Below are positions 29,955 to 63,490 of a stretch of 64,000 bases of DNA, one piece after another. Location of the stretch: assembly GCA_947184155.2 (NCBI GenBank), contig CAMXCT020001648.1, forward strand, positions 62,001 to 126,000, given 5' to 3'. The DNA is from Cladocopium goreaui (Eukaryota > Sar > Dinophyceae > Suessiales > Symbiodiniaceae). The first letter of the stretch is position 1. The number at the start of each line of letters is the position of its first letter. The notes below the pieces were generated by a model. It did no database searches. It was not told where the DNA came from and was given only the letters and a program-made list of their open reading frames with translations. A program made the position numbers and the translations under genes.

Positions 29955-30749
29955 TATGTCGCCCGGAACTACATTGGAAGACAACCTGAAGCTGCGCTGC
30001 CCGTAGCGCTCCAAGGCTCTGCCGAGTGGGCCTCCTGGGTCCTTTCCCTCTCAGAAGTCTGGCAAGATGACGCCCCAATGCAAGACCGACCCCTGGAAGT
30101 GCACTGCAGTGGATTAGGGGGTGGCCTACTTAATGGCGAACACGACTATGATATTTTCCTGCAAAATCTTGCGCAAACAAAGGTGTATGGCCCATCGCTT
30201 GCGATGACAGATGATTGGGAAGCACATGTCACCCAATTGGGCCTCACCAAAACAGTGCATGAATATGCGGTATACCAGCTACACTCCACTGCAGAAGGAT
30301 GGACAGCTTGGCGAGATTTCCTCCCTGAACAGTTCTCCGATCAACAACTGCTGCTCACGAGAGCGATTCGCCTCATTGAGGCTGCGAATATCCGGCCAGC
30401 CCATGCCAGGCCACCACACCCGACTTGGTCAACAGCAATTATGCAGATCTTCCGTTGCTACCATCCGCAAGGGAAACATCTATTTTTGAAGTCGTGTTTT
30501 CCACACTTAGTCACGACAGCGGATACAGGAGGTGTCAGGGACATCAACGTTTATGGTTTCTCGGCAGGGTCCTATACGGGCCTTGCAGTCCACGAGATCC
30601 TGAGTGAATTCGCTGCGTTCCCTGGCCTCACCAAAGTTGCTGCGATTGCGACGCCGCCAGAGATGATGCGACTTGCCACGGGCGAACGCAGAGTCACACT
30701 GGTGCATTGTCTGGAAGACCGGCTATGTGTGTGGAACCTGACTCCTTAA
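29955..30749 (+). CDS. alpha/beta-hydrolase-like reading frame, 5' end unclear, frame-shifted into the helicase
   Basis: The frame is open from 29,955, but its first ATG is at 30,078. It carries INVYGFSAGSYTGLAVHE, a G-x-S-x-G nucleophile elbow followed by a helix, and then VTLVHCLEDRLCVW, which resembles the strand and acid/histidine region of alpha/beta hydrolases. Just after LCVW the frame hits a stop, while the helicase frame continues as PDSLTEFNYQVVL; a one-base change at about 30,733 would join them. So hydrolase and helicase may be one protein damaged by a frameshift, or be linked by ribosomal frameshifting. Substrate unknown. Weak alternative: an unrelated GXSXG protein. Confidence 0.5.
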   Translation, partial: YVARNYIGRQPEAALPVALQGSAEWASWVLSLSEVWQDDAPMQDRPLEVHCSGLGGGLLNGEHDYDIFLQNLAQTKVYGPSLAMTDDWEAHVTQLGLTKTVHEYAVYQLHSTAEGWTAWRDFLPEQFSDQQLLLTRAIRLIEAANIRPAHARPPHPTWSTAIMQIFRCYHPQGKHLFLKSCFPHLVTTADTGGVRDINVYGFSAGSYTGLAVHEILSEFAAFPGLTKVAAIATPPEMMRLATGERRVTLVHCLEDRLCVWNLTP

Positions 30750-33700
30750 CAGAATTCAATTATCAGGTTGTTCTTATAGAAGGGCACCCCACATGGAGTG
30801 GGCGTGCCAAACACTCCTATGGCCACTTGCTTTTCATTGACCTTGATGAAGGAGTCCATGAAATCCAACGATTGCAAATCACCACCCCTCAAGTCATTCC
30901 TCATGGAGTGCGGTGCGAGGGATTGCTGCGTGTACTTTCGTGGGTTAGCTTTGACCTTCCTGAACACCTCAAGACGACTCTAAGTGCTCTGTTAGTAGCA
31001 GCGGGAGAGGGGAACACTGAGCTACAAACAGTACCCATTGTCGGACGGGACATTCGGGATGGTCAGCCTGATACGGAAGCTGAACTACAAGCAGCTCTGA
31101 TTGCGATGATTCCTACACCGGGAGGATCCCATGATGAGGGAGGGTTGCTGGTTCGCAACTTACTGGCGGAATTCCTGCGTGGTTTTTCATTACGTACGCT
31201 CATCTTCCTACTGGACATGGTGCTTCCGCAACTTGACGCTTATCATGCGGGACGGCAGCTCCAACATCTCCAGCCCTGGGTTAGTGTAAGTGTAGAACTA
31301 GCTCAGCAGAAGAAGCGAGGACAACCGGGAACACGGTTACAGGTTACCTACCAATATGAGGCGTATGCTGGCTTTCATGTCATTCACCTACATACTGACG
31401 GTGCCCCGCTCCTGCTCTTTAGTGCACCTTCGGAAGTTCCAACGACCTCGCCGCGTGCTCTCTGTGAAGCTGGGAATCTAGGCAACTTGGAAGCCAACGT
31501 GATGGCGGGCAGAGCACTACTGGGAGTACTCCAGTTGCCAGACACTCAGCAGCGGTGTGTCATATTACTGGTACATGAAAAGGTGATGCCTAGCGGAACC
31601 AGCAAGAACCCTGCTCAGCGAGCGCTCAAGCGCATTGCCCCTAAGTTGCTGGAGCTTGTTATCGTCTCGCTACCCATTGCTCGGACCTTTTGTGGGCGAC
31701 TTTTGGACCAGTATCTCAAAACAATGAGTTACTTTGATCCTGCACAGGACTGGCCGAAACCCATCGAAGACCATGTGTCCATGGCCGTAGTGTGGGAGGA
31801 GCTAGCCTTTCTGGGAGACACACGCAGCCGCCATGAACTCTTAGTGTTTGCACAAGCTAACCAGTCGCGCCTACCATTGGCAATGGGCATCGTGCAGCCG
31901 CATATACCTGTTCGCCGCATGGCCAGCGAGCGCAAAACGCAGCTGACTGATGCATTAGTCAGAATCTTGAGCCGGTTTTTGACACCAGCCGCGATCTCGA
32001 TGGAAGGGGCCCATGACAGTTATTACCGTGAGCATCTACTTCCACTAGCAGCCCACGGTGATGGACATATATTGACTGTCTCAATTGCACTGTTGCTGGC
32101 CATTTTGACAGGAAGATCTGACTTATGTATTGCAGGGGTCTTTGGTGCTGGCAAAACGCGGTCCCTTGCAGTCTTGCTCATTGCCCTGAGCTGCGAACTC
32201 AAGGACTTTGTTGCGATCATCTATACGAAAGAAAATGTAGCTGCCAAAGCACTTGCGGATCAGTTAAGTGACCTCGCGCCCCCCACAATCCGGAACTTTG
32301 GTAGGCTAATTGGTCGCATGGAGGAAGGCAAAGGAGACGCATATGCCTCCAAAATTGACGTCCGCTGCAGTGACCGCAATAGAATCATCGCTCACAAGAA
32401 TGTACTCATTGCAACAGGTGGCTCAGCCACGGCGGAAATGGCGATGCGCTATTCCACTTTTGGCCATTGGATCTCTCGCACCTGGCTTGCTTTCATGGAC
32501 GAAAGTCAACAGTATGGCAATTACCATGAAATTGCAGCTCTCGCTGCCATTCAACAACCAACCCTTACAGTCTTCATTGGAGATCACAGGCAAACACCAG
32601 GAGGGCTGTCCAAAGGCCGAGCAGCGGCTGTCAATCGACGCAAACTGTTGCAACGGCCGTTAGGGCTCCGAGCGCTTGAGAAGCCAGGAGACTATCTTCC
32701 GCCGGCACGAATGGCAGCCCTTGTAGCTCAACTTTGGCCTGATGCGAGCCAAGATCCGGAGTCAGATCTCTATAAACTGCTGAGACTTGCAAATAAGCCG
32801 CATAGTGGCCCATGGACATCCACTCCGCAAGACTACGAGCTGCCTGTCGCCCTAAGGCGGGTGTTCCACTGCCGAATCTCTTGTCAGTTGGATGCACATA
32901 GCAGCCTCATTGCAGCAGCTCTAGCAGTCCTGCTGATTGCCACAGCACCAGAGGAGTTTGGAGTACCTGAGTGTACCACAACCCTTGAAGCAGCCGGGCT
33001 ATGTGGTCCTCATCGATGGGGTATCATTCTCCCTAAGAGCTCACGGGTCTCAATGCTGACATACCAAGCGATCGTTGCAGTTCGCTACCCTGAATTAGTC
33101 CTTCACGAGCCCAATCACATCTACATTGGACACTTCGTGCCACATGAGGCCACTGTGGCACAAGGAGGTTTCCGTACAGTACTGTGGAATGCACCCAAAG
33201 ATCTAAGAGCTGCGGTTGAAGATGTGGTTGCCTTCTGCACCTACCTGAAGAATTATTATCGCAACTTGCAACAGGGAGCAACCTCGCAGCTGCTTGTCTT
33301 ATGCAACCGTACAGCGGTGCACAACTTGCTGCTCCAGCATGGCTTTCAGTCCGCGTGGTATGGCGGGCTGAGAGTTTCCACCACTTCTTCTGCTGCAGGG
33401 GCGACAGCACGCATTGCGGTCATTGTTCAAACAGGTGTCGGGTTTCTAAGTGGAGGACGTCGGGATGCAACAGCAGACAAGCGTGAGGACTGCTATGGAA
33501 GAGCAACTGTAGCGCTCACAAGAGCCATTGAACATACCTATATTGTCTCGCCTCTCGATATGGCAGGCATGATTGGCATGGCTCAGACAATAGGAGTGTA
33601 CCATTACGGATACTTCACGCTGAAAGGCCGAGACATTCAGTACCATGGCCCTACAAGCTACCCCAGCGACAAAAGTGCCATACTGGACTGGGGATTAAAG

Positions 33701-34447
33701 GCACCTTTCATTCCCCAAGATAAACCCCCCCTTGCTATTGCCATGATAGTGACCACTAATGGAACACGAGCGTGGCGGCGATATCGGTTGGTTGTGGCAT
33801 GCAGAGACAAACTACGTCTTCCCCCTGATGTCCTCGCAGCGCTAGAGTCCCGCACACGTGACCATGTGCTGACGGCCAGCGGGTTTTTCCCCTGCTCGAT
33901 TGATCGTGAATACTTGTATGGTTACGCTGCTGATGGCTACAGATCTCCCCTCTGGCTATGTGCAGCCTATAATGGGTCCCCAGCACTTGTTCATCGACAT
34001 AGAGGCCACAAAGTCTTCTTTCACGTGGGTATACAGGATCGGCAACTTGTCGTAATCCCGGGTATCCATTACTTCGATGCACATCGGTTGCAGCCGGACC
34101 TTTTGGCCACATTGGATCGCCAATTTGATCCAGGGTCTATGCAACTCGCAAGCCCTGAGGGTGCAGGAGACACAGTGAACGACCCCTCCTCGGATGAGGA
34201 AGCAGCCTCTACTGATGGCGAGAGCGATCCAGAAGACCCTACAGTTGCGTGGTGCCCACCCATACCTGATGCAGCTGAAGATCCCTCTGAGGACGAGATC
34301 GCGAGTGCAGCTGACCAGCTCGCAATTCTGATTACTAATGTCCAACCTAACGGAAACCCTTTTTGCATACCCGAAAACCTTGGGATTCTCCCGCCGCTGT
34401 GGCTACAGGCGAGATCATCTTTTCATGCTCGTGCCTCCCCACTTTGA
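30707..34447 (+). CDS. superfamily 1 helicase-like protein (1246 aa)
   Basis: Long intact frame. Walker A GVFGAGKTRS at about residues 477-486, Walker B/DEAQ-type FMDESQQYG at about 596-604, motif III FIGDHRQTPGG at about 624-634 and motif VI VALTRAIEHTYIV at about 935-947. This set and order fit UPF1/DNA2-like SF1B helicases. The N-terminal about 450 residues are unassigned and the first residues continue the hydrolase-like frame; the C-terminal about 200 residues are acidic. The gene is intronless, unlike the host genes in the left third. It is followed within about 10 bp by the start of the methyltransferase frame. The listed start (30,707) is only the first ATG; if fused to the hydrolase the real start is upstream. 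Confidence 0.75.
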   Translation: MSGRPAMCVEPDSLTEFNYQVVLIEGHPTWSGRAKHSYGHLLFIDLDEGVHEIQRLQITTPQVIPHGVRCEGLLRVLSWVSFDLPEHLKTTLSALLVAAGEGNTELQTVPIVGRDIRDGQPDTEAELQAALIAMIPTPGGSHDEGGLLVRNLLAEFLRGFSLRTLIFLLDMVLPQLDAYHAGRQLQHLQPWVSVSVELAQQKKRGQPGTRLQVTYQYEAYAGFHVIHLHTDGAPLLLFSAPSEVPTTSPRALCEAGNLGNLEANVMAGRALLGVLQLPDTQQRCVILLVHEKVMPSGTSKNPAQRALKRIAPKLLELVIVSLPIARTFCGRLLDQYLKTMSYFDPAQDWPKPIEDHVSMAVVWEELAFLGDTRSRHELLVFAQANQSRLPLAMGIVQPHIPVRRMASERKTQLTDALVRILSRFLTPAAISMEGAHDSYYREHLLPLAAHGDGHILTVSIALLLAILTGRSDLCIAGVFGAGKTRSLAVLLIALSCELKDFVAIIYTKENVAAKALADQLSDLAPPTIRNFGRLIGRMEEGKGDAYASKIDVRCSDRNRIIAHKNVLIATGGSATAEMAMRYSTFGHWISRTWLAFMDESQQYGNYHEIAALAAIQQPTLTVFIGDHRQTPGGLSKGRAAAVNRRKLLQRPLGLRALEKPGDYLPPARMAALVAQLWPDASQDPESDLYKLLRLANKPHSGPWTSTPQDYELPVALRRVFHCRISCQLDAHSSLIAAALAVLLIATAPEEFGVPECTTTLEAAGLCGPHRWGIILPKSSRVSMLTYQAIVAVRYPELVLHEPNHIYIGHFVPHEATVAQGGFRTVLWNAPKDLRAAVEDVVAFCTYLKNYYRNLQQGATSQLLVLCNRTAVHNLLLQHGFQSAWYGGLRVSTTSSAAGATARIAVIVQTGVGFLSGGRRDATADKREDCYGRATVALTRAIEHTYIVSPLDMAGMIGMAQTIGVYHYGYFTLKGRDIQYHGPTSYPSDKSAILDWGLKAPFIPQDKPPLAIAMIVTTNGTRAWRRYRLVVACRDKLRLPPDVLAALESRTRDHVLTASGFFPCSIDREYLYGYAADGYRSPLWLCAAYNGSPALVHRHRGHKVFFHVGIQDRQLVVIPGIHYFDAHRLQPDLLATLDRQFDPGSMQLASPEGAGDTVNDPSSDEEAASTDGESDPEDPTVAWCPPIPDAAEDPSEDEIASAADQLAILITNVQPNGNPFCIPENLGILPPLWLQARSSFHARASPL

Positions 34448-34457: not shown

Positions 34458-34742
34458 ATGCTAACTGCTGATACTAAAGTTGAAGCCATTGCGGCATAGA
34501 AATTTAGTACATTCGACAACAGCGGTACCAATGGGAAAACTACCGCGGTACCCTCTACAAGCTCCACACAGCACCAGCCGCTCACGAAGGACAAACGAAC
34601 TGACCATGATGCTAAACTGCCTAGGACCCCGTCTGTCCCCCCCAGCAGCAAGAAAGAAATTGACCAGCTTCCGGCTTACGCAGCGTTAGGCACCACCCCC
34701 CCGCCAACTCCGCCCTCCCAACAGGTCAACCCTTATCAAAAC
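34458..34742 (+). pseudogene. displaced N-terminal part of the DNA methyltransferase reading frame
   Basis: An ATG at 34,458 opens a frame that, apart from one TAG at 34,497-34,499, runs as Ser/Pro/Thr-rich sequence (TPPPTPPSQQVNPYQN) to the copia insertion point. The same NPYQN-S peptide occurs at 59,231-59,248 in the methyltransferase frame. Removing the copia element and the short SINE-like insertion puts both parts in one frame. So this is the original 5' end of that gene, separated by 24.4 kb. Confidence 0.65.
34738..34742. repeat. target-site duplication AAAAC, left copy
   Basis: Matches 59,119-59,123, directly outside the two LTRs of element 2. Confidence 0.85.
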
Positions 34743-35540
34743 TGCGAAAATCCAACTGGACCTAATTACAACCACTAGTCGCGCTCCTAACGTCGCAAGG
34801 GGTCGGCTTAACTCCGCGTCGAGCGTTTAACAAGTTAAAACCCAAAACACGACGGCTTCACTGCAAAACTCAATTCCCTTTTCCACACAGGAAGACACGA
34901 AAAGCGAGCAAGCTGTCTATCCAGCTATGTCTTGCACATGCAGCATCTATGTTTGACTTCTCTTGTTCTGGCTGGTCTGCTCTGTTGTAAAAAGGCAGCG
35001 GCGGCATGCAAAAACAACTTCAGAATAAAAACGGTCTCCACAAACTTCTTCTCACTCAAAGGCGGTGAATTCGACTTGTTCGAATTCACCATGTTGTTCC
35101 AAAAACATCAAAAACGTTGTCAAAAACATTTGGCAACTTCCAGAAACAAAAATGCAGTCCAGTTGAGAAAACATTCTGTTGGGATTGTTGGAAAACGTCA
35201 TGCACATGGAGTTGAAAAACGACGTCAAACTTCACCTCAAAACGTTCGCACCAAAAACTCATCCCAAATTCATTTGCTGTCCAGATTGCATCAAGTGCAA
35301 ATGAATTTCACAGAAAAACGAAGTTCTTCTCCAAAAAGTTGATGTCAAACATCATCATCCAAAAATAATCAAATCTCCATGCTTCTGTATTCAAATTCAG
35401 ATGTCTCCACATCGTTCTGCATCATTTCCAGAGTTCTGTTCAACCGTATTGTCAAAAACATCAAATCATAGCCACCATGCCAGTTACATGCAGGAAACGT
35501 AGCACATGCCCACTGTATGCACGGGAGTGTATATTTCCAT
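34743..35540 (-). repeat. 3' LTR of element 2 (798 bp)
   Basis: Near-identical to 58,321-59,118; two differences seen, near 35,117-35,124. A 136-codon plus-strand open frame occurs in both copies; both differences change its residues, so I do not treat it as a gene. Confidence 0.92.
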
Positions 35541-35553
35541 ACCCCCTTTTGCT
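35541..35553 (-). other. polypurine tract of element 2
   Basis: On the minus strand AGCAAAAGGGGGT directly precedes the 3' LTR, which fixes the element's orientation. Confidence 0.78.
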
Positions 35554-35972
35554 GCGTTTCCCATCCATCCAGATCCAGCTAAATTCAGTCGAAGTCAAAA
35601 GGCTCATACCTGCTGTCCATATGTATCAAATTGCTGTCATCTGTTCAACCTCCCAGTGAGGACTTGCACACGAAGTCGCGTCTTCACACCAGTTGCAGAT
35701 GTATTGCAAAAATACCTGTGTACTCGAATTAATCCTGTGTTTATATCCATTGACCGTGTCCACATTCTCATTGATGTAGAAAGAAAACGAAAAGGTTGTG
35801 CAAAAATGCCACATTGAAATTGCTTCAAAACGAATTCCCTGCAGTCCAGCTCATCACCAAGGAAGCCCAAAGATTCTGCAGAGAGCATTCATCGCAACAC
35901 ATTCCAGGCACATTGCGCATGCAAAAAAAAATCGCCACATCCAGCTCCATGTTGGCATCCGCAATCACTCCA

Positions 35973-37547
35973 TTAGCGCCAAGAGAACTCACGCTGGTAG
36001 ACATAGCCGGCATTGAGGAATGCGTCTACCCTGCAGTGAATTAAGAATGCACAGAAATCCGGACCCTGTGTCCTTGGCGTTGGAGTTAATTTCTTGCGGA
36101 ACTGGCCAATCATCTTCTTTGCGTAGCGGCACTCCTCCATGCTTTGGTTGAAGACCCTCACAACAAAATCATGGTAGGTGATGGGCTTTTCGGCAAAACG
36201 GCCCATCTTGAGAAGCGTGCATGACCAGTGATATGTATCTTTGATCCATGCAGGCTGTGGCACATTGAAATCGACCTCCTCATAGTCGATTGTGGCATCT
36301 TTCCAATTGTCATCCCACTTGTGGGTTGCTGGCAGCCCTGATTGCACCTTTGGAAATAGTGGCGGGGAGTCGCCGGTGTCGGAGATGAATGAAAAGCTCC
36401 CCAAAACGCTGCTGGCACTCTCTGCATCCGAATTTGACTCGACAGCTTCATGCCGTCTTTTGGAGCCATCGGTCATAGCGCCATTGTCATGCATTTTGTT
36501 CGAATTGCCTTCCACAATCTCCGGAGGCTCTTCGGAGATGCGTGCACACTTCGAACCAGAAGCTTTGGGAGGAGGCAGAGTTGGTCCTTTAGGACCCTGC
36601 TTCCCCTTCTCTCCATCCTTTCCTTTGAATTCACCTTTGAATTCTCCCTTTGCCACATTCTTGCCACCTTTGTCATCCTTGCCACCCTTCTCATCTTTGC
36701 CACCTTTCGCAACTTCCGGCTTGCCACCTTTGGTATTGTCAGGCTTCCCACCTTTGTCATAGCTCTTTCCCTTGCTCTTCTGCTCCTGGAACGCTTTCTC
36801 ACTTCCAATTGCAGATGCAGGCAAAATCGGCGGGTCTGCCTTCGCTGCAGGAGGTAGAGGAACCTGTGCCTTGAATTTTGGAAATCCTGCAGGCTGTCCA
36901 TCAGCATCGGCACAGTAGCGGTTGGCAATCTCAGCAATGGCTGCAGCCGCAGCTTTAGCCTCTGCAATATCCGCATTCTTTTGCACAACATTTCCAAAAA
37001 GTTGTATCACAGGTTTGTCATTCTTTGGGTCTTTGGCATCCTCCTCAATCCAAGGGTCGTCATTGGGATCATATGGCCTGTCCTGCCATTTCTTGTGGTA
37101 TTCCCGTGCATCGACGATCCCTGAATTCCCTCCAGCTTGCAAAGTAGGCGGCGGTGTCGTCGGAGGCACCTTGTATGCATTCTGGCTGTAGGCATCCGGC
37201 CATAGAGCACCAGACGGTGCAGCCGATGCAGCAGATGAATTCGAGCCTGTCGGAGCATGCACTTTGGAGGGACTTGGAGGCACATGCGATTCCATGCAGT
37301 CCTTCCAATCATCATCATCTGGTGGATATGGTCTGTTCATAGGTGCGTTCTTGACCTCTTTCTTGTGGACGGTCAATAATTCATTCATTTTTCCACCAGC
37401 TTCTGCTTTGCGCATCAACTCGCGCAATTGGTCCCATTCTCCCTGTGTCATGTCCGTACCCAAGACTGGATCACTTGGGCTGTAAGGCATCGAATTCTCC
37501 TTCTGTCGATACCATCCAGAAGCATCACTATGCTTGAGTGTTATCAT
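35973..37547 (-). CDS. accessory protein gene of element 2, 3' of pol, 5' end split by the TIR element
   Basis: About 520 residues with acidic PYPPDDDDWKDC-type segments, an Ala-rich helix, and a KGGK/KGEFKGE basic repeat (about residues 255-310) like the gag basic regions. No recognised enzyme motif. The apparent first four codons (MITL) come from the end of the inserted TIR element. The original start lies at 49,806-49,808, where ATG GCT TCA AAA and three more codons (to 49,785) lead into the duplicated target CACTATGC and then, in frame, into HSDASGWYRQ. So the gene lies between pol and the 3' LTR, the place where some copia and gypsy elements carry extra genes. Function unknown; nucleic-acid binding is a guess from the basic repeats. 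Confidence 0.6.
   Translation of the reverse strand: MITLKHSDASGWYRQKENSMPYSPSDPVLGTDMTQGEWDQLRELMRKAEAGGKMNELLTVHKKEVKNAPMNRPYPPDDDDWKDCMESHVPPSPSKVHAPTGSNSSAASAAPSGALWPDAYSQNAYKVPPTTPPPTLQAGGNSGIVDAREYHKKWQDRPYDPNDDPWIEEDAKDPKNDKPVIQLFGNVVQKNADIAEAKAAAAAIAEIANRYCADADGQPAGFPKFKAQVPLPPAAKADPPILPASAIGSEKAFQEQKSKGKSYDKGGKPDNTKGGKPEVAKGGKDEKGGKDDKGGKNVAKGEFKGEFKGKDGEKGKQGPKGPTLPPPKASGSKCARISEEPPEIVEGNSNKMHDNGAMTDGSKRRHEAVESNSDAESASSVLGSFSFISDTGDSPPLFPKVQSGLPATHKWDDNWKDATIDYEEVDFNVPQPAWIKDTYHWSCTLLKMGRFAEKPITYHDFVVRVFNQSMEECRYAKKMIGQFRKKLTPTPRTQGPDFCAFLIHCRVDAFLNAGYVYQREFSWR
37526..37533. repeat. 8-bp target-site duplication CACTATGC, left copy
   Basis: Identical to 49,778-49,785 just outside the opposite inverted repeat. 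Confidence 0.85.
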
Positions 37548-37640
37548 TTGGCTCAGAAAATTTATTTAAAGGTTTATTTTTTTTTGCGATTTCGATATGA
37601 TTTTGTTATGATTTTGTTATGGTTTCGATATGGTGGAAAA
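37534..37640 (+). repeat. left terminal inverted repeat of the TIR element
   Basis: First 17 bp match the right end perfectly; similarity continues imperfectly through TTATTTT and GATATGATTTTGTTATG units. Confidence 0.75.
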
Positions 37641-39690
37641 TATGGTTTTCTTATGGTCTGAAACCACCTCCTGAAGAAGATATGAATTTCGATATGGTTT
37701 TGTTATGGTGTGGACATGTCTCCAGCCTTCATATTTTGATAGAACTTTTCAAGATATGTATTTATATTATTGACATATATTTGAACTATTACTAAATTTA
37801 CTTAAGAAAAAAATACAGATTTAAAAATGAAAAAATGAAAAGAGAAAATTACTATATATATTTGTATATTATTGGAAAATGCATATTTCAATGAAAGACT
37901 GAGTACAAATTGAAATATAAGAAAAGGTGTAAAGATTTATTTTACTTTTACTAATATTACTTTATCTTTGGGGTCAAGAAAATTATAAATTGAAATATGA
38001 GAAAAATATAAAGATAGTTTTACTATTTATATTTGAGTTAAAGAGAAAAGAATTATAAATTGAAATATAAGATTAATTGAAAAGAATTGCCTAATGAATG
38101 CCAATTTAAAAAAAAAACATATTTTTTAAAAACATGATTTAACATTGAAAATCTGCAAGGGCTGTTGGAAAAAGTCAAGGATATCGGATAAGAAAGCTGG
38201 ATTTTCAAATCAACAATTCTTAGCTGTAGTTCAAAGACGATAAGTGGAAATCAAATGGAAAAATAATTAACCAAATAACTACCGAAACACTCATATGTTT
38301 AATTTAAAATTTTAAAGAGCTTCCAGATTGGATCACTGAGGCAAGAGAGCCATGATGCTTTTGTTGACTAAAGTGACTGACTAAAGGCGGTTGGCTGCCA
38401 AATAGACACGGAATCCTTAACATTGGACACCATGGTTCAATCACGGACTACGCTGACACTGCCACACACACAGCACATGGGTTTAGCCAGGTTTGCACTT
38501 AAACTGTTTTTTAAAGTCAGCCCTCCTTCCTTCTGAGATAGTAATGGTAACCACCCGGAACAGCAGCCGTCACAAAGGACGCCGTGGGTTTCTGAATGGC
38601 TGTGCCCGTGATTAATGATTCATTAACGAATAATGCCATAGGCCATAGGCCATCAACCACAGGCCCTAGGCCATGGGCATAGGCATAGGAGCTCAAAAAC
38701 TTTGTTTAGCTGAGATGGTTTAGCTTAGCTGAGCTGTTTAGCTTAGCTCAACAACTTTGTCTGGTTCTTTAAAGAAGTAATTTAAAATGAAACACGACAT
38801 ACATCACATACGCAAGAGGAAAACTGTAAAGCAGGAAACATGCTTTTTGTTTCAAGTACATGCACATCGCTCGCGTTTACGCCCGCCTACGCGACGCATA
38901 AACCCCAAACATGTGCCATGCAAGGTTTTGAGATAAACACAGGTTTGAAGGTTTTTGGCTTCTAAGACCCTAGGAAAGTTCACATTGAACTTTCAAAACT
39001 GCAACTCTCTTTGTCATTATACATTACGAGTTTGCACACAAAGCGCAGATGCGTCACCGATACCAGTTCAGATTCTAGGGGAGCCAAACATGTGTCAATC
39101 AATGATTGCTTCATCAGTTCGCTGTTGGCGCATTGTTGCCCCTACTTTTCCTGTTTCATCCCACGCTGTCACTGTTCACTTTAGTCACTAGCCGTTAGTC
39201 ACTCACTAGTCAGTTTTCAATACCACTTTGCCCCGTTCTGCTCTGAAAAAGGGCAAGTTAGGCCCAATGTTAAAATCAAAGACATCCAAGTCAACTGCCC
39301 CGCACCTTTTTCCCCTTCTCAGGCTTCTCAGAGCGATGTGCCAAGACTTCCCAGAAAGAGCCTACATGGCCTAACGGGGATGATGCGAGTCAAACGCGAA
39401 TGACAGATACAGAGATATATGATTTGATTTTTCTGTGCTTGTGACTTAAGATCACTGCCGTCCATATTCCAGGATTGAGAATGCGACTGCTGCGGGGGGA
39501 GCCAGGTTCCGTGTTTGTTCGCTGTTGTGGGTTTCCGGTGCTGCGTCGCACGCGTGGGGGCGGGGGGCCCACACACGCAGAAACGAAGGGCTAAGAAAAA
39601 AACCATAGCGCAACTCGGGATCGGAGATGGGGCCTTTGGTATTGTTGTGGTGGGGGTGACTGAAAACATAAGGTTCCTGTGACAAAGTCA
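37641..39690. other. AT-rich interior of the TIR element
   Basis: No convincing gene. Contains A-rich AAATTGAAATATAAGA repeats (37,900-38,070) and a CCATAGG/TAGCTGAG-type short-repeat patch at about 38,635-38,760. Confidence 0.5.
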
Positions 39691-39699
39691 GAGCACGAA

Positions 39700-40135
39700 A
39701 AATCAACCATATCAAAACCATATCAAAATCATATCAAAATCATATCAAAATCATAAAATCAACCATAACAAAATCATATCAAAATCATAAAAATAAATCA
39801 AAACATATGTTTTTTATGATTTCGATATGATTTCGATATGATTTCCATATGATTTTGATATGATTTTGATATGCCAAAGTTTATGATTTTCTTATGGTTT
39901 TGGAGTCTCTCCGTTTTTTTGATATGATTTTGATATGATTTTCTTATGGTTTTGGAGTCTCTCCGTTTTTTTGATATGATTTTGATATGATTTTCTTATG
40001 GTTTTGGAGTCTCTCCGTTTTTTTGATATGATTTTCTTATGGTTTTGGAGTACCTCCGTTTTCTTGATATGATTTTCTTATGGTTTTGGGGTGCCTCCGT
40101 CTTTTTGATATGATTTCGTTATTGTTTTCGTCCGG
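39700..40135. repeat. GATATG satellite and palindrome
   Basis: About 39,710-39,800 consists of ATATCAAAATC units; from about 39,815 the complementary GATATGATTTTGATATG units follow, forming a large palindrome centred near 39,806. From about 39,913 a unit of about 50 bp (GATATGATTTTCTTATGG plus GGAGTCTCTCCGT) is repeated about four to five times. Confidence 0.7.
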
Positions 40136-40352
40136 CCACATCTCCCACCCCCGTCGCCGGACCCCGGCCACACCTCCCACCCCCCCCTCGTCGGACCCCA
40201 GCCACACCTCCCACGCCCGTCGCCGGACCCACCTCCCATCCCGTCGCCAGACAGTGGAACCACTGAGGAACTCTCTGATTTCAAACTTTGGTTTCTTTCT
40301 GATTCTTTTGGATCTCCAGGCACGTTGCAGCATGCTACAGACCTACAGAGTT

Positions 40353-40661
40353 GTCTTTTGAGCCCTCAAGGTTGTTTAGAAGGTAACACTTCCAAGTTAC
40401 ACCAAACGTCCTAAACTACGCACGCGCAAACTTAAAAATTTAAAACAACATTAAAACTTAAACAGTTCGAAACATCGACTGCAGTGACATGCAATGCACA
40501 ACTGAATGCGACGGTCTCTCTCTTTTTGCTGCCGGTCGGGGGATGAATCACCTGGCAATCGGACTTAGGTTGCTGGATCGCCTTTTCAAAGGCCTCAGCT
40601 TTGAAGTTATTATCCACTGGATTGTTTCGTTTGAAACCTGTGTATCTAGTTGTCATCCTTT
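40353..40661 (-). repeat. split direct repeat B2
   Basis: 309 bp, near-identical to 40,951-41,261 (a 2-bp indel and a few substitutions). Confidence 0.88.
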
Positions 40662-40695
40662 TTGGGGGTGGGGATGACTGAAAGGAATGGGTGGG

Positions 40696-40950
40696 AGCAA
40701 AAAGGAAAATGGTTGCACAATTTTGTGCTCCCTCCCACCGCTACCCTTGAGTGGTAAGTCCGGTACAAATAAATAATTCAAATGACACAGAGTGATCAAG
40801 ATTTTATTTATTTATTTTTTTTTTTTGGTTTGACGTTTGGTGTTGTTACTAGGAAGTCTTGTTTACCTTTAACCTAAACAACCTTGTACGCTACGTTCCT
40901 ACGCCGGGCACGAAAAGACAAGGCTTTCATACTTCCTATGATGCACCTAC
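40696..40950 (-). repeat. split direct repeat A2
   Basis: 255 bp, near-identical to 47,808-48,060 apart from poly-T length and single substitutions. It abuts B1 directly at ..CACCTAC|GTCTTTTG. Confidence 0.88.
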
Positions 40951-41261
40951 GTCTTTTGAGCCCTCAAGGTTGTTTAGAAGGTAACACTTCCAAGTTACAC
41001 CAAACGTCCTAAACTACGCACGCGCAAACTTAAAAATTTAAAACAACATTAAAACTTAAACAGTTCGAAACATCGACTGCAGTGACATGCAATGCACAAC
41101 TGAATGCGACGGTCTCTCTCTTTTTGCTGCCGGTCGGGGGATGAATCATCTGGCAATCGGACTTAGGTTGCTGGATCGCCTTTTCAAAGGCCTCAGCTTT
41201 GAAGTTATTATCCACTGGATTGTTTCGTTTGAAACCTCAGTGTATCTAGTTGTCATCCTTT
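40951..41261 (-). repeat. split direct repeat B1
   Basis: Copy of 40,353-40,661; joined without spacer to A2. Confidence 0.88.
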
Positions 41262-43404: not shown

Positions 43405-43452
43405 GAATGACGCATAACGCGACTCATGTGGCTGTTCTTCCGTAGACCTTTG

Positions 43453-49785: not shown

Positions 49786-49808
49786 CATTGCTGTGGTTTT
49801 GAAGCCAT

Positions 49809-52725: not shown

Positions 52726-52745
52726 TGCATCAACCTCTGCCTGTC

Positions 52746-55154: not shown

Positions 55155-58100
55155 GCGATGCTGTGGCCATCACTGTGGCAGCAGCACCAGAGTCTAGTAA
55201 CCACCAGTGATCTTTCTCATCACCCATCATGATCTCTGAAAGCAATGGGTGCAAAACAGGTGAGTATCTATGCAGTTCAAACTCATGAGAAACAGTATCA
55301 TGCACGTTCAGAAAAGTCGAAGTTCCAACTGTTTGCAACTGGATTCGATGACAGTTTGAAGAAATTAAGTCTTGGGAAACCGCAACATCACCTGACACCT
55401 CTGAACCTTGCAAACCACACTCAAAGGTAACCGGACGGTGTAGAGCTCCATGCAAAGTCCCTGAAAGGTCGGTGGTCCCTGTTGCAGACATGCCACACAA
55501 CAAATTGGAATCTACCTGTGGTGTTGTTTCATGCAACCATCCAAAGTTTAAATTCCAAAGTTGACATGTTTCTGTTTCCGTTTCCGTTTCACTGTCACTG
55601 TCATCAAACTCGTCTCCAAACATGGTGTCCATGACAACTGAACATGCAGATTCACTGTCAGAAAATGGAACGAATTCTCCACTGATGAAAAACTCAGGTT
55701 CAGAAATAAAACATGCTGGTGGCAACCTGTTGAAAAAGATTCTCAGTCTCACGTTTCGAAGTTGGCAGCACTCTAAGTTCGCTGCAAAATCATCACTAAT
55801 AGTCATGCAGTTTTGACACGTGCAGAAAAGTCGATTCGACTCTAAACACTGCAAACCTGCAATTGAGACATGAAAAACAGTTTCATCGGTTGAAAAATGA
55901 CTGCAAACATCATCAAAAACGTCGGAAATTTCAGTTTCAAGTGTCAAACTTGTCGAAAAACCTGAAAACATCTCTGAAATCAAGGGACTCAGCACTAAGG
56001 ATTGGACACCTTGGGTTGTTCCACCTGCACTTGCACTAGGTTGCTGCTCATCCGTCACAGGCCAACTCCAAGATTCGTCCCAATTCTCCTGTCCTTCTTG
56101 CCACGTGCAATCCCAAGATTCATTCCAACTGTCATTCCAGACCTGTGCAGTTTGATACCATGACTGGTCCTCCCACCAAGAACCATCGTCATGCCACCAC
56201 ATGTCCGCACTGTCCCATTCTTCATCGTATCCTACTTCGTTCATTTTTCCTTTCTTGCCAAAACCTTTACCTTTGCCTTTGCCTTTCTTCCCTTTCTGCT
56301 TTCCTTTGCCCTTAATTACTCCTTTTCCTTTCTTTCTCTCTGGGCAATTTGCAGAAATGTGGCCAAATTTCTGGCATTTGAAACACTTCAGTTTTGACAA
56401 ATCAACATCACATGCATTTGAACTGTGTCTCCTACTTCCACAGGTACCACATCGCACACCCCCTACTGCATCTAAATTCCAGTTTCCATCACCATCACTT
56501 GCAGACATATCATATTGCACAGTGGATTCATCTGAACCTTCCACCTGGGTGACCTGGTATAGATTTTTCTTGGGGTGGAACTCAGCGAAAGCACGCTGCT
56601 GCTGTTCCCATCTCAGTGCTGTGGCCCTAAAAGCTTGGTACGACTCACCTCCAGTGTGATGCAAACAAAACGTCCTGACTGCTTCAGGCAAACTACGTAG
56701 CAAAACAGCTACCAAGTCAGCTTCGGCTACATGCAACCCTGTGGCATCAATTCTACTTGACAGTGTTCCCAGCAACTTAGAATACCTGGCCATTTCAAAG
56801 TCTATCTTTCTGATTGTATCTGTCACAATCGTACTTGCACTCGTTTCGTTTCCATGCAGTGCAAAAGACTTTCCTGCCAATGCCGTTCTAAAACTAAGTG
56901 CCTCACTCCTCGTCCTGATGCTGTACTCGAGGGTCAGCTGTCTCACCAGCTCAAAGCCATTCGAAGCTTGCAACTCTGCATTCACACCAACATCCGCATT
57001 GCACAAGTTGATCCCTTCACTGAATGCATTGATCAACGTCAAAGTTCTCGGGTGATTTCCAAATGCACTTCTCAAAATAGCAAGCAACCTTCTGCTTCTT
57101 GCACGTTGCGGCACAGCTAATTGATTCCAGTGCAACGGATCTGGCCATCTACAGGCATGCTCGATTTCACTTCCGAACTCAAGGCTGGCTTGCATCGCCC
57201 AGGCTGTTAAATCATAGATGTAAGCTTGCCACCCTAGGATTTCTGCTTCTCTACTGGTCCACTTTGCACAATCCGGTGTTGGAGGCGTTCCCAGCCATTT
57301 CTCACTTTTAGCAAATACGTCACCTACGTATTCCCCGGATGTTCCTGGTACGTGCATTGGATCCATACTTTGAGGAAACCCATTTGTGGCCCTTTGTCCA
57401 AACATCTCAGGTACACCTCTAGCCTGGCCAACCTGTTCACCTATCACCTGTCTGACTTGCATTAACTGCATCGGTTCCAAACCTCCCATCAGCCTCAGCA
57501 CATCTTGCAACCTCTGATTCTGGGGTGTTACTCCGCCAATGTCCGGTCCCATGCACATGCCTCCAGTTTGACCTTGTCCTACCTGACCTTGTCCTCCTTG
57601 ACCTGGGGCACCACCGCAATGACCTGACATCCATGGCATTCCATAACATGCATTCCCCTGTCCAGGTTCTTGACTTCTACCTGTGCTAGCTTGGGCACTT
57701 TGACCTGCAGTTCCCATGCAACCTTGTCCTGGCATCCCTTGTCCGTGCAGACCTTGTCCTACCTGACCTTGTCCTGTCAGACCTTGTCCTCCTTGACCTT
57801 GTCAGAACTGACCTTGTCCTAACAGACCTTGTCCATGCACACCCTGACCTGGATACCCTTGACATGCAGTACAACCACTACATCCATGACCTTGACATCC
57901 CAGAAAACCCTGATTCTGACTATAGTTCCGTGGATCCATCAAACTACCACGCATCGGTCCGTATGACCCAAAAACATTCATTGCAGGAGGTAGCATCTGT
58001 ACAGTTCCAACTAAGCTTCCAGCTTGACCAACTAAGCCCGGAGCCGCTTGTGTCGCTGCTGTCCCAGTTCCTACTGCTGCTTGCGTGTTGCCTTGCATCG

Positions 58101-58275
58101 CAGTACCTGTGGGCGAATTACCTGCAGCACCTGTGTTTCTTTCTACGCCTTGCTCACCTCCTCCTTCCATTCTGTTCATTGTTGGCGACCCTACTGGTCC
58201 TACATGCAGTGAGTTCATTCCTAGCGCACTTCCTTGGCCATTAGGTCCTTGTCCCTGGTTACTTCCTGGCATCAT
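55126..58275 (-). CDS. copia gag and protease N-terminus (element 2), one in-frame TGA
   Basis: Starts MMPGSNQGQGPNG just inside the primer-binding site. A Gly/Gln repeat (GQGQVGQG type) is interrupted at 57,802-57,804 by a TGA; the same frame continues on the other side through more GQG repeats, so the stop is either a mutation or read through. The gag core follows (about 57,290-56,550), then two CCHC knuckles (CGTCGSRRHSSNAC and CFKCQKFGHISANC), a KGKGKGKGFGKKGK basic run, a Trp/Asp-rich segment, and finally the protease site LLDSGAAATVM, after which the frame stops. Confidence 0.82.
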
Positions 58276-58308
58276 CGCGTCTACTTACACTACGCGTGGA
58301 GCACAACC

Positions 58309-58320
58309 GCTCCGCTACCA
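58309..58320 (-). other. primer-binding site of element 2
   Basis: TGGTAGCGGAGC on the minus strand directly after the 5' LTR; the same 12-mer as element 1. Confidence 0.78.
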
Positions 58321-59118
58321 TGCGAAAATCCAACTGGACCTAATTACAACCACTAGTCGCGCTCCTAACGTCGCAAGGGGTCGGCTTAACTCCGCGTCGA
58401 GCGTTTAACAAGTTAAAACCCAAAACACGACGGCTTCACTGCAAAACTCAATTCCCTTTTCCACACAGGAAGACACGAAAAGCGAGCAAGCTGTCTATCC
58501 AGCTATGTCTTGCACATGCAGCATCTATGTTTGACTTCTCTTGTTCTGGCTGGTCTGCTCTGTTGTAAAAAGGCAGCGGCGGCATGCAAAAACAACTTCA
58601 GAATAAAAACGGTCTCCACAAACTTCTTCTCACTCAAAGGCGGTGAATTCGACTTGTTCGAATTCACCATGTTGTTCCAAAAACATCAAAAACATTGTCA
58701 CAAACATTTGGCAACTTCCAGAAACAAAAATGCAGTCCAGTTGAGAAAACATTCTGTTGGGATTGTTGGAAAACGTCATGCACATGGAGTTGAAAAACGA
58801 CGTCAAACTTCACCTCAAAACGTTCGCACCAAAAACTCATCCCAAATTCATTTGCTGTCCAGATTGCATCAAGTGCAAATGAATTTCACAGAAAAACGAA
58901 GTTCTTCTCCAAAAAGTTGATGTCAAACATCATCATCCAAAAATAATCAAATCTCCATGCTTCTGTATTCAAATTCAGATGTCTCCACATCGTTCTGCAT
59001 CATTTCCAGAGTTCTGTTCAACCGTATTGTCAAAAACATCAAATCATAGCCACCATGCCAGTTACATGCAGGAAACGTAGCACATGCCCACTGTATGCAC
59101 GGGAGTGTATATTTCCAT
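58321..59118 (-). repeat. 5' LTR of element 2 (798 bp)
   Basis: Near-identical to 34,743-35,540. On the coding strand it begins ATGGAAAT and ends TTTTCGCA. Confidence 0.92.
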
Positions 59119-59123: not shown

Positions 59124-59128
59124 AGTCC

Positions 59129-59230
59129 ACGCGGACAGACTACCGGTGGTGGTTCGATTCCCCGCTGGTCCGCAGGTAAGCCTCAAGTGTGGTGACCAGT
59201 CGAAAGACAATGGCGCCGGCCACCAAAAAA
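59129..59230 (+). mobile_element. short tRNA-half-derived (SINE-like) insertion
   Basis: 102 bp containing GGTTCGATTCC, an exact polymerase III B-box/T-arm sequence, and ending in A-rich ACCAAAAAA. In the pre-copia arrangement it is flanked by 20-bp direct repeats AACCCTTATCAAAACAGTCC: the left copy is 34,728-34,742 continued at 59,124-59,128, the right copy is 59,231-59,250. Direct repeats plus an A-rich 3' end are the signature of retroposition. There is no A box, so only the 3' half of a tRNA is represented. It lies in the methyltransferase reading frame and supplies that frame's present ATG. Confidence 0.65.
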
Positions 59231-62200
59231 AACCCTTATCAAAACAGTCCCCCCCTCACTGATGCTGTCGCTGGGGCAAGCGTCCATGACACTGCGAAGC
59301 CACATGCAGAGCGGTCAAGCAGTCAAGGTGAACTCAAAGGTGCTCAGCGTGCTTGTAAAGTTCCAGAAGGGCAATTAACACCTAGTGATGCACGCACTGA
59401 CCCCCCTACTGTCAGCCCAACCATCCCATGGACCAACCTACCTGCTAGTCACCCAGCTGGCACCAGTGAGCAACCAATTACTGATATGGTTGTTGATCAA
59501 GACTATCACGGAAATAATATACGCAAAACAGAGGAGGAAGATAAAGAGATGCTACCTCCCCAACCTGCACTTCTCTCCACCCCCATCAAGAAACCCCCTA
59601 CATGTGAAGGAGAAGCTCTTAGCAGTCAGAAAACTAGCCTACAAGAGCTCAAATCTACTTGTGGAGAAGTGAAAGGTGGGTTTGCAAGCAAAGGCAGACT
59701 GTCTAATGAACTTTCTGACCCTGTTATCACTCCGTCCTCCCCACCCGGTGTCTCCCCTCCCTCACAAAATGACAATGCGAAACCGGAGAGCAGTGACCCC
59801 ATTGTACATACACTTCCAAGTCAATGCCAGCCTCCAGATGCTGCCTCTAAGGCCCCTATTGGAAATGATCCTTTACCAGAAAAACAGTCAGTGTTACCTG
59901 ATGACGCTGTTGTCGTAGAAATCGGTAAAGATCCCCCTGGCATTGCAACCCCCACAAAGACCAAGTCGTCCCAGGCTTCTTCCTTACATCAAGGAGAAGC
60001 ATTGCCCCCTATCCAGGCTGCCCTTCAACGAAGTTCTGTCCTCCCGGCTAACGACAAAACGCGTGTGTGCATTGATATCACTGGGGAAGATGACCATACT
60101 GAGCAAATTGACCTCACACAGCCATCCTTTGAACGTGAGACTCAAAGTCAGTCCCAACAATTTCGTTTTGCCTCTCTCTCTCCTTTTGCTGAATCTAGCC
60201 GAAAATGGTTCCCGACCCTTGATGCTACCGTTATTGCTGCCTTAGCTAACAAAGCCCAAGACATTGCGATCCACTGTAGTCACATGTCTAGCATGAATAC
60301 TGCATTGTACCTCCTATCAAGAGGGCCTTGGATCCCAACACATGTTAGTATACATGTTCGACAAGCAGCCCTTGCAGCAGTAGGTGTAGGGTGGAGCTGG
60401 GTCCATCAAGTACCCACGGTTTTTCCCTTTACATGTTTTGACGCCTGCCTATCCTTAGCAACACTTAGCACCATTCCCCCCAACGTCACTACACAAAATG
60501 ATGCAGTGTATGAACTATATTCAATTGTATGCGCTAACCTTAGTCAGAGTACTCGTAGTTTTCTTTTCTCAAGATTTGTGTTACAATGTCAGGCGTGCTT
60601 ACGGTCTAGCGCAATACCAATTGACACCTTCACTGCGACAATCAAGCCTAATACAGGTATAGATGAACTTTGTGACTCGTTAGTTCCAATCTGGAATACT
60701 GATGAATTGACAGAGTGTCAAGCTTGTTCATGTCTAGACGCTGCCAAAGCCAAGTGGAAGTGCGGCAAATTCGGCCCTTTGATCATCGTTCGAATCAAAG
60801 TACCTCCAGGATGCTCCTTTCCGAAGCTCGAGGAAGAACGACTCCCACTCAGGCACAAATTTATGTTCCAAGAAAGAGAGTATGAAATCCAGTGTCTCAT
60901 AGCCACCACTAGGCTTGACTTTGACAGCCAGCTCATAGTCCTGCATACTAGTCAGCCTGGAATGATAAGTATGTACGACCATAACAATGGTATACGAGTT
61001 GCGGACTACAAGCATGTCAGCGGGAAGCTCCTCATCAGTGGGCTTGTCATACTGCCAGTCAAATCACCCAAAGCAATTCTAATGACAAAGCAACTTTCTG
61101 AAGCAGCAGAAGGTGGTGAAGTTGCGCAGTATCGCAGAAGACAATTAAAGGTTGTCAAAGGCTTTCTCAAATCGCCTCGGAAGCAGAAAAGAACACGAAC
61201 CTCGCAGCTCTCTCACCCTTCATGCAAGCACAACGCTAAAACCAAGTCGAGCAAGAAGAAGGCGAAGGCGACCAGACATGGACCCCCTAAAGATGGTAAG
61301 AATGAGGATATAGTTGAAGAGATTGACCCTGAAGGATTACCTAGGATTATCGCACACGAAACGCTGGCCAACATTGGTGTTATCTCGATGTTTGATGGAG
61401 TCGGATCTGTCTATCACATCATTAAGAAAAAACTAGGTAAACCCCCTACTATTTTCATCGCAGCAGAAATTGATCCTGTCTTACGTCGGCTTGTTGCTGC
61501 TGAAATAGGGCTGCGTGAAGACCAACAGTGGGGATATACGATTGAAGGGGTTGCTACCATCTACGTTAAAGATGTCTGGGATTTAGTTGCCCGTGACTCT
61601 CTGATCCTTCGTCAAGCCAAGGCAATGCACCCTACAATCAAGTGGATTGTTGTTGCAGGATCTCCCTGTCAAGATCTTACTTATGCAGGTTATTTAAATG
61701 GATTGCTTGGGCTGACAGGTCAGCGAAGTATGCTCTTCTTTATAGTTTACCTTGTTATTCTGCATCTTCAGAAGCTCTTTGGAACTGAATCGATCCGATA
61801 CTTGACAGAGAATGCTGGAAGCATGCAAATTGTACAAACTGACCGCAAACCTAAAGGTATGCAGCGCCTTGAGCAGTCTGAACACTTCCAAATGTTTCTA
61901 TACTGTCTTGGACTTCCTAGGAAGCAACCAACCTACCGGTGGGTCTGGGACACGAGTCCCTACTATGGCATTCAGCGAAAAAGGGTATTTCTACGAAGCC
62001 ACATGGACACAGAGGAACTTGCCAGTGTTCCACTTACATTTCTCGATGAATGGGGCCCATTAGTGACCTTGAATGGTGAAAACTTACCATTGGCTCCATT
62101 ACTCCGAACAAGAGGGCTGTCAAACAGTGGAATCCTGAAGCTCTCCTGGACAGGCTACCAGCCCAGTGCACTTCTATGGGATTATTCCTTTTTTGGTGGG

Positions 62201-63490
62201 AGGAAATCTTTCATGTTGTTAACCCAAATGGCTGAGGGAGTTAGAGTCCCAAACCTGCCATGGGCAAGCTTCATCCCTGCTCACTTTCTCCCTATATGGA
62301 AAAGTTTCCTTATCACTCTTCAAACAGACAGAGCGACCACATCCAAAAAAGATGAACTCATCGAACAACTAGTGCCTATCTTTCATAACCCAAATATTGT
62401 ACTGCCAATGAGAATTCTGACGGTCCAAGAAGTACGCAAATTAGCAGGACTTGAGAATATCTTAACGACAGAAAGACATGGGCCTTCCCTTCTCACGGAT
62501 AAAGTGATTCGAGACTTTTGTGGAAATAGTTTTCATCCATCTCTCATCAGCGCGGCCCTCGGTACCGATGATCAATTACAACAGTGGGTTGAGGGAAACA
62601 ATGATGCGCAGCCGTACCACAAGGACCTACCGAGTATCCAAGAAGTTTATTCTAAATACCAAGACTTGCTGAAGCTGGTTTTAGAACAAGCAGCCGCTCG
62701 AGGAGTTCAACTCAGAGATGATAAAGTGGATTTTGAAGCTAAATGGCGGCACTACTCTCTTAATGACAGCGTCGAATCAGCTTGCCCCCCAGTAGTGCAC
62801 CAGCCGACAGTCTTCGCCTTTTTACAAGGATCCAACCCTCCTAAGTATTATGGAGCCCACAGTGAGGATAAACCCCCCTTTGGTGATAAAGAGTTGAGCA
62901 ATATTATGACCCAAACTGGGATTGATTGGGTGCTAGAGTCCTCAAACACATATGAAAATGTTACCCTATCAGCGCACATGCTTTACTTGGCTGTTAAAAA
63001 TGGTCTTGGATTTCATTCTGAAGCTCAAGAGATCAAAGCAAAGCATATTGAACTGTTGAAAGAATATACTGGTGCTGAACAACTTACTGCTATCAAACAA
63101 CTATTTGTTGTTTTCCAGATTGCAACGCTCAGTGTAAAGCACCAATTTCCCTACGGTTTTATCATTTGGGCACCAAAAATTATGCAACCTCCCCTTATCT
63201 ATGTTGGGGTACAACGACCTTGCCTGCTATTCCTGTTGCTTTCTCATGAGCCTGATCAACCGTTTCGCTTTGGAACGGTCGCATTTGACTATCGACAAAG
63301 TAAAGACCTTCTCATTCATGCCAACATGCCAAAGATATTTGCTGATGTGGTGCAAGTTTCTTATCATACATTTGCGACCTACCCGATACTTGCTCGAATT
63401 GATAAAGGACAACACTATATATTGGTTCGGGCACCTGCCTCTATCTGTGTTATGGCACACGTCCAATGTTGTCCTCGATGTTGTAAGTGA
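59210..63490 (+). CDS. DNMT3-like cytosine-5 DNA methyltransferase with large N-terminal region
   Basis: About 1426 codons from the ATG at 59,210. Residues about 1-340 are low-complexity Ser/Pro/Glu-rich. Residues about 380-640 hold two CQAC pairs and a beta-rich stretch ending LIVLHTSQPGMISMYDHNNG, faintly like the zinc finger and palm of ubiquitin-specific proteases (low confidence). The methyltransferase domain follows: motif I VISMFDGVGSVYHIIK, motif IV VAGSPCQDLTYAG with catalytic Cys, motif VI TENAGSM, motif VIII YGIQRKRVFLRS, then LAGLENI and motif X DFCGNSFHPSLISAAL. The P-C-Q and E-N-A forms fit the DNMT3 side of the family. About 330 C-terminal residues are unassigned. The present ATG lies in the short tRNA-derived insertion; the original N-terminus is at 34,458-34,742. 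Intronless and directly downstream of the helicase in the undisturbed locus. Confidence 0.85.
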   Translation: MAPATKKNPYQNSPPLTDAVAGASVHDTAKPHAERSSSQGELKGAQRACKVPEGQLTPSDARTDPPTVSPTIPWTNLPASHPAGTSEQPITDMVVDQDYHGNNIRKTEEEDKEMLPPQPALLSTPIKKPPTCEGEALSSQKTSLQELKSTCGEVKGGFASKGRLSNELSDPVITPSSPPGVSPPSQNDNAKPESSDPIVHTLPSQCQPPDAASKAPIGNDPLPEKQSVLPDDAVVVEIGKDPPGIATPTKTKSSQASSLHQGEALPPIQAALQRSSVLPANDKTRVCIDITGEDDHTEQIDLTQPSFERETQSQSQQFRFASLSPFAESSRKWFPTLDATVIAALANKAQDIAIHCSHMSSMNTALYLLSRGPWIPTHVSIHVRQAALAAVGVGWSWVHQVPTVFPFTCFDACLSLATLSTIPPNVTTQNDAVYELYSIVCANLSQSTRSFLFSRFVLQCQACLRSSAIPIDTFTATIKPNTGIDELCDSLVPIWNTDELTECQACSCLDAAKAKWKCGKFGPLIIVRIKVPPGCSFPKLEEERLPLRHKFMFQEREYEIQCLIATTRLDFDSQLIVLHTSQPGMISMYDHNNGIRVADYKHVSGKLLISGLVILPVKSPKAILMTKQLSEAAEGGEVAQYRRRQLKVVKGFLKSPRKQKRTRTSQLSHPSCKHNAKTKSSKKKAKATRHGPPKDGKNEDIVEEIDPEGLPRIIAHETLANIGVISMFDGVGSVYHIIKKKLGKPPTIFIAAEIDPVLRRLVAAEIGLREDQQWGYTIEGVATIYVKDVWDLVARDSLILRQAKAMHPTIKWIVVAGSPCQDLTYAGYLNGLLGLTGQRSMLFFIVYLVILHLQKLFGTESIRYLTENAGSMQIVQTDRKPKGMQRLEQSEHFQMFLYCLGLPRKQPTYRWVWDTSPYYGIQRKRVFLRSHMDTEELASVPLTFLDEWGPLVTLNGENLPLAPLLRTRGLSNSGILKLSWTGYQPSALLWDYSFFGGRKSFMLLTQMAEGVRVPNLPWASFIPAHFLPIWKSFLITLQTDRATTSKKDELIEQLVPIFHNPNIVLPMRILTVQEVRKLAGLENILTTERHGPSLLTDKVIRDFCGNSFHPSLISAALGTDDQLQQWVEGNNDAQPYHKDLPSIQEVYSKYQDLLKLVLEQAAARGVQLRDDKVDFEAKWRHYSLNDSVESACPPVVHQPTVFAFLQGSNPPKYYGAHSEDKPPFGDKELSNIMTQTGIDWVLESSNTYENVTLSAHMLYLAVKNGLGFHSEAQEIKAKHIELLKEYTGAEQLTAIKQLFVVFQIATLSVKHQFPYGFIIWAPKIMQPPLIYVGVQRPCLLFLLLSHEPDQPFRFGTVAFDYRQSKDLLIHANMPKIFADVVQVSYHTFATYPILARIDKGQHYILVRAPASICVMAHVQCCPRCCK

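Follow-up and report, generated by a model that had tools for sequence, protein, structure and literature searches.

What kind of genetic unit would place hydrolase, SF1 helicase and DNA methyltransferase (DNMT) genes head to tail on one strand? The question is posed by a 64,000-nucleotide stretch of a Cladocopium goreaui contig, termed the window, for which an initial annotation proposed a large undescribed mobile element that couples a helicase to DNA methylation. That proposal came close to the reading developed here, in which the genes of the window and of a second contig, C1135, belong to one giant APE-type dinoflagellate LINE and the window holds two nested copies (A and B) of it. We place the probability of this reading at about two in three. 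The proposal requires amendment in two respects: LINEs that unite a DNMT with a reverse transcriptase (RT) are already published, and the adjacency of the helicase and DNMT genes is better read as a junction between copies. The features of the window are collected in Table 1.

Table 1. Features of the window, with strand and the basis of each assignment.
Feature	Position	Strand	Basis
Copy A, hydrolase part of helicase protein	29964..30737	+	tblastn of P0001 and P0029
Copy A, SF1 helicase part of the same protein	30725..34414	+	P0001 574-1802 at 96%; AAA_19 below cut-off
Helicase-gene site GTGGCTACAGGCGAGA, followed by DNMT sequence; proposed integration site	34399..34414	+	Window and L029 interrupted here
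Copy B, DNMT from ~residue 449 of P0034	34416..34742	+	tblastn; stop codon at 34497-34499
15-bp duplication AACCCTTATCAAAAC of SINE-like insert	left copy 34728..34742, right copy 59231-59245	+	
Copia LTR retrotransposon at edge of SINE-like insert	34743..59118	-	LTR alignment; RVT_2 E 1.3e-15
DIRS-like element nested in copia	40353..48060	-	Split direct repeats, tyrosine-recombinase-like frame, by eye
SINE-like insert	59124..59230	+	tRNA T-arm-like stretch, short A-run, 15-bp duplication
Copy B, further DNMT part	59233..63423	+	P0034 552 onward at 96%; alignment A5
Fold-back insertion of ~41-bp repeats, first arm	63424..64000	.	Inverted match to 63416-63953; second arm past window in L048

The Helicase Protein of Copy A

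The open reading frame list of the window includes two long plus-strand frames without introns (30608–34447 and 59180–63490), both unbroken. Judged by their length and by protein matches of 93–98%, these frames are genuine and not products of chance. The separate hydrolase gene that had been proposed did not survive comparison with relatives P0001, P0029 and P0032, in which hydrolase and helicase form a single protein: the hydrolase makes up the N-terminal portion of the helicase protein, and in copy A a frameshift near 30730 parts the two stretches. Copy A begins at about residue 321 of P0001 in tblastn comparisons, that is, it is 5′-truncated. A GFSAG motif was read off the hydrolase part at ~30555, and GFSAGS, HCxED and GHLxF stretches containing Ser, Asp and His are invariant in alignment A4 of this part. 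We take this pattern to be compatible with an α/β-hydrolase triad.

The helicase core of copy A lies at ~32123–32600. AAA_19 was the best Pfam match (E 5e-4), under the Pfam cut-off for the window protein and over it for the relative P0003. The aligned relatives display the motifs GAGKT, DESQQ, GDHRQ (GDHRQT) and VALTRA, with P0004 as the single deviating row (GAGKA), and the SF1 assignment made originally is upheld by this match and these motifs. The protein search yielded 33 clusters with 3,478 member sequences among the ~8,000 best candidates scored. A distant helicase relative, 29% identical to P0003 across ~1330 residues, was encountered on the opposite strand of locus L060 (1347–5435), which suggests another family of this kind.

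The DNMT Protein of Copy B and Its Continuation Beyond the Window

The full DNMT protein comprises ~2,250 aa, and relatives P0034 and P0045 carry ~450–600 residues ahead of the point at which copy B starts. The FDGVG, PCQ and ENAGS motifs of copy B are located at ~61391, ~61664 and ~61808, respectively, and the PCQ, ENA and GNSF stretches are almost or wholly invariant among 17 aligned relatives. Nine of these 17 matched PF00145 weakly (best E 0.0079), and the window protein gave no PF00145 match in Pfam up to E 0.1. Matches in PDB were weak (DRM2 at E 0.52 and E 1.1), and an NCBIfam search produced a weak dcm match plus one RT match. The motifs indicate that the window protein is a very divergent C5-methyltransferase. 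The protein search gave 33 clusters with 1,342 member sequences among the ~8,000 best candidates scored, and scans of viral_contigs and genome_contigs for relatives confirmed none, although PCQ-type methyltransferase matches turned up at 15 loci. The label ‘DNMT3-like’ found no support: the main text of de Mendoza et al. (2018; PMC5890265) assigns LINE-borne DNMTs to an orphan lineage and Dnmt3 to DIRS elements.

The DNMT continues past the window. In locus L048, after the fold-back insertion, the last 160 DNMT residues occupy 2358–2837 and an APE-RT frame starts at 2841, with 96% likeness to P0071 across residues 1–713; locus L057 extends the RT homology as far as residue ~1586 across a ~2.6-kb interruption. 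In the RT relative P0067 a single frame matches PF03372 and PF00078 above the cut-off and the RNase H-like RVT_3 below it, and AP endonuclease and RT of the P0067 type were matched in both L048 and L057. The DNMT end and APE-RT start are contiguous also in contig C1135 and gene model P0062, and the order DNMT-then-RT recurs in model P0058. Besides two fused models, DNMT clusters and close-clade RT clusters had exactly the same source-contig size in three cases, and none of the 79 distant-clade RT clusters with known source-contig size coincided with DNMT clusters. The arrangement is that of SymbioLINE-Dnmt, described in the main text of de Mendoza et al. (2018; PMC5890265) as a very high-copy Symbiodinium LINE with an intronless DNMT frame upstream of an Exo_endo_phos and RVT_1 frame. 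It differs in the further frames, the hairpins and the short A-run at helicase-side ends considered below. The reported CpG depletion also was not seen in this copy (CpG observed/expected 0.70 and 0.55 versus 0.48–0.64 for other stretches; one locus, minisatellite left out), although depletion is a statistical family trait for which a single copy is not decisive.

Helicase Copies Share a 3′ End

The search of the assembly (1.166 Gb, with the window at C1648:62001–126000) returned 4601 first-look helicase candidates of which 36 were scored; 34 of these 36 were without an internal stop, with open frames of up to 2,562 aa. Thirty helicase loci, including the window, were fetched with 1.5-kb flanks that reach ~0.3 kb beyond the helicase stop. 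Within this distance DNMT sequence follows the helicase in the window alone and in none of the 29 other loci, contrary to what recurrent pairing of the two genes, as initially envisaged, would predict. The sequence runs on into the C-terminal part of the helicase in 28 of the 30 loci (in part for L019 and L042, and as far as residue 387 for L030), and the ~300 bp after the stop are conserved in 25 of the 26 loci in the 3′-flank alignment, which omits the window, L019, L029 and L042; L030 is the exception. All nine copies followed further (eight 2.5-kb stretches and contig C34) have in common ~2.6 kb and one 3′ end, which bears eight or more A residues in every copy except L056. Six of the 30 stretches, the window included, start inside the gene and hence are 5′-truncated. 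In the 18 kb downstream of the C34 copy neither DNMT nor RT was matched; a weak helicase-like fragment on the opposite strand was all that appeared. In L055 another helicase fragment (2324–2500) lies ~60 bp beyond the 3′ end of a helicase copy; helicase copies may cluster.

Sequences Upstream of the Helicase and Recurrent Hairpins

Contigs C1164 and C1135 have at least 6.8 kb in common upstream of the helicase (91–96%), with frames of 258, 409–421 and 353–393 aa. The last of these in C1164 matches ankyrin (Ank_2, E 1.4e-8), and the 258-aa frame had a sole match to PF02053, below the cut-off. Contig C5978 shares just the last ~2.5 kb of the region, and the homology of C1164 stops at L061 8927 in a 5′ truncation. 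C1135 displays, in the same orientation and in order, the DNMT end, the RT, small frames, the ankyrin frame and the helicase, as read on either side of 31601–32801 (1.2 kb) and short of the 3′ end. Its RT homology covers residues 1–2007 of 2018 in a broken frame with an insert of ~1.05 kb, and a repeat of ~1.05 kb (97%) is present in both the RT and the ankyrin region of the contig. C1135 additionally holds an inverted DNMT segment, as in twin priming. Gene model P0151 (symbB, which we take to be Breviolum minutum) fuses a LINE RT with a helicase relative.

Short hairpins recur in these sequences. The pattern C(N)AAGACGT with 5-base arms occurred 13 times in the main set scanned, and 11 occurrences pair at all five positions when G-T is allowed; because some sites among the 11 recur from copy to copy, approximately seven are distinct. 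Five stem types were present (CTGTC/GACAG, CCGAC/GTCGG, CTGGC/GCCAG, CTGGC/GTCAG and CTGAC/GTCAG), and the two remaining matches (in L060 and on the window's minus strand) pair at two of five positions. Hairpins with these covarying stems recur ahead of frames and beyond the helicase, and they flank the C1164 truncation point on either side. In the other helicase loci CTGTC/GACAG was counted 28 times, 25 at the post-helicase site and the other three at another site close to it. Five loci together held nine perfect hairpins, whereas 200 first-order resamplings gave none, a partial control as the pattern was derived from the same data. Between DNMT and RT no hairpin was present in L063, L048 or L057. 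At the protein level, traces of the motif were apparent in two of 160 proteins: P0054, where the trace precedes the DNMT frame, and P0026, where it precedes the helicase frame. A search for spliced-leader remnants gave three matches with two to three mismatches, near chance.

The link from RT to helicase is drawn from C1135, the shared hairpins and model P0151. The most serious alternative, which we regard as rather unlikely, posits two separate LINE families: a DNMT-RT family of the SymbioLINE-Dnmt kind that terminates shortly past the RT, and a helicase-ankyrin family dependent on an RT supplied in trans, with the window and C1135 as chance neighbors or nested copies. An RT lies upstream of the helicase in a single contig, C1135, where a DNMT-RT LINE beside a 5′-truncated helicase LINE is conceivable because L062 5305–7134 is known in one copy. 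Moreover, no helicase cluster matches any RT cluster in source-contig size, and GC content differs between helicase (0.53) and DNMT (0.46). In the main text of PMC5890265, SymbioLINE-Dnmt has a conserved 3′ UTR and is transcribed across ORF2 and the 3′ UTR without poly-A tails, which favors an element that stops shortly past the RT over a longer one, whereas the helicase copies end in an A-run. No A-run of seven or more was found after the RT stop, which proves little because the published DNMT-RT LINEs lack poly-A. The one-element reading is further weakened by the missing DNMT and RT downstream of the C34 copy, the lack of hairpins between DNMT and RT and CpG values that reveal no depletion. 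Set against two families are the hairpins on either side of the doubtful boundary, the motif trace upstream of the DNMT in P0054, the shared orientation of the frames, and P0151 in which RT and helicase are joined.

The Junction of Helicase and DNMT Sequences

Helicase homology extends to 34414 and DNMT homology starts at 34404 in a different frame, the two meeting within ~10 bp in tblastn comparisons. The DNMT sequence enters mid-gene: the ATG that lies 10 bp past the helicase stop encodes a methionine internal to the DNMT, and a stop follows 13 codons further. The close stop and ATG, which had been taken as compact packing, are thus by-products of the junction. In locus L054 the A-run of an element is followed by GTGGCTACAGGCGAGATTGACG, which is the helicase site where the window breaks, and L029 is broken at the same site by sequence that matches nothing among the sequences compared. 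Because the L054 A-run adjoins this site and L029 breaks there too, we read the window as a 5′-truncated copy B, starting within the DNMT, that was inserted in the helicase gene of an older 5′-truncated copy A. The contig ends before the other half of copy A, which counts against this nested insertion.

An original order helicase-DNMT-RT, with ~3 kb deleted internally from the window copy at the junction, would account for the shared orientation and direct mid-gene join, but is very improbable. All nine helicase copies that were followed reach the fixed 3′ end without an intervening DNMT, and other contigs break at the junction site too; an internal deletion as cause of the junction was rejected on the helicase loci without DNMT, the fixed 3′ end and the recurrent break site. 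The occurrence of helicase P0029 and DNMT P0034 both on contigs of 167,993 bp accords with such an order, and was dropped as strong proof since chance alone can bring two such abundant families together within 168 kb. It is scarcely credible that the genes form a viral or large DNA-virus-like mobile unit or a head-to-tail array of ordinary host genes: the long intronless frames and PDB searches that revealed no close relative of the helicase would fit, but an APE-RT adjoins the DNMT, the copies show 3′ A-runs and 5′ truncation, first-look helicase candidates are very numerous in one genome, and scans of viral_contigs and genome_contigs confirmed no helicase relative.

Later Insertions in Copy B

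The copia element noted originally between the two genes was verified by LTRs of ~798 bp (34743–35540 and 58321–59118) and a direct repeat, AAAAC, at 34738–34742 and 59119–59123. We interpret the adjoining short insert as SINE-like; it had no second copy within the window and no tRNA or Rfam match, and the first ~50 bases of the frame at 59180–63490 (before 59231) derive from it. The DIRS-like element had no Pfam match. Its frame at 42697–43452 (minus strand) includes FSGSGS and ENP motifs, with CGTC in place of PCQ, and is possibly a degenerate cytosine methyltransferase-like domain by eye. The last ~200 aa of the copia Pol frame (50494–52776, minus strand) resemble SAM-methyltransferases by eye (EVCCG, TPCSSG), with RVT_2 as the only Pfam match. 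Inverted arms of 119 nt (37534–37652/49659–49777), 80% complementary and 12 kb apart within copia, perhaps mark another nested element. Elsewhere in the window, a second copia-like element (20303–27719) has a 2216-aa frame (20605–27255, minus strand) with weak RVT_2 and zinc knuckle matches between identical 184-bp terminal repeats, and a fold-back inverted repeat (29511–29782) lies immediately upstream of copy A.

Discussion

The proposed giant LINE would encode, in order, the DNMT (~2,250 aa), an APE-RT (~2,018 aa, with probable RNase H), small frames, frames of ~258 and ~409 aa, the ankyrin frame and the hydrolase-helicase (up to 2,562 aa), and would close with a 3′ UTR of ~2.6 kb and a short A-run. 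Summed frames and spacers from partial copies give an estimated full size of ~33 kb. RT and helicase would form one transposing unit that spreads by target-primed reverse transcription (TPRT). Copy B is presumed to have entered the helicase gene of copy A at GTGGCTACAGGCGAGA, with the SINE-like, copia and fold-back elements landing in copy B later. The helicase may assist reverse transcription by unwinding RNA or DNA of such great length, and the hairpins may tag individual frames of a polycistronic RNA to be processed or translated. The DNMT could methylate new copies to match the CG-methylated genome, an idea put forward in the main text of PMC5890265.

LINEs usually possess one or two frames and measure under ~10 kb. 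That the element is the largest LINE known to us (~33 kb), polycistronic with six or more frames, that a covarying hairpin ahead of its downstream frames signals processing or translation, and that it prefers to integrate within its own helicase gene, we rate at slightly better than even odds. The Terminons or Athena elements of rotifers, which are Penelope-like and telomeric, also are giant retroelements with several extra genes, but are not APE-type LINEs. Insect TRAS and Jockey LINEs carry a viral SF1 helicase (Morozov et al., 2017, PMC5563155; PMC6338049) and are alike in that respect; in them the domain resides within the ORF2 or ORF1 protein, whereas here the helicase stands on its own as a ~2,500-aa protein that includes a hydrolase part and is located 3′ of the RT, and the element encodes a DNMT as well. 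A literature search found no report of a dinoflagellate LINE with a helicase, and the main text of PMC5890265 makes no mention of helicase, ankyrin, hairpin, hydrolase or ORF3. The DNMT-plus-RT LINE has been described already; what seems new is its helicase part and its great size.

If the reading is correct, it would raise the questions of how TPRT copies an RNA of ~33 kb, how a trans-splicing organism translates several frames from one RNA, and whether the DNMT marks new insertions. Such an element, with 4601 first-look helicase candidates in one genome, could also explain many unannotated intronless proteins of dinoflagellates.
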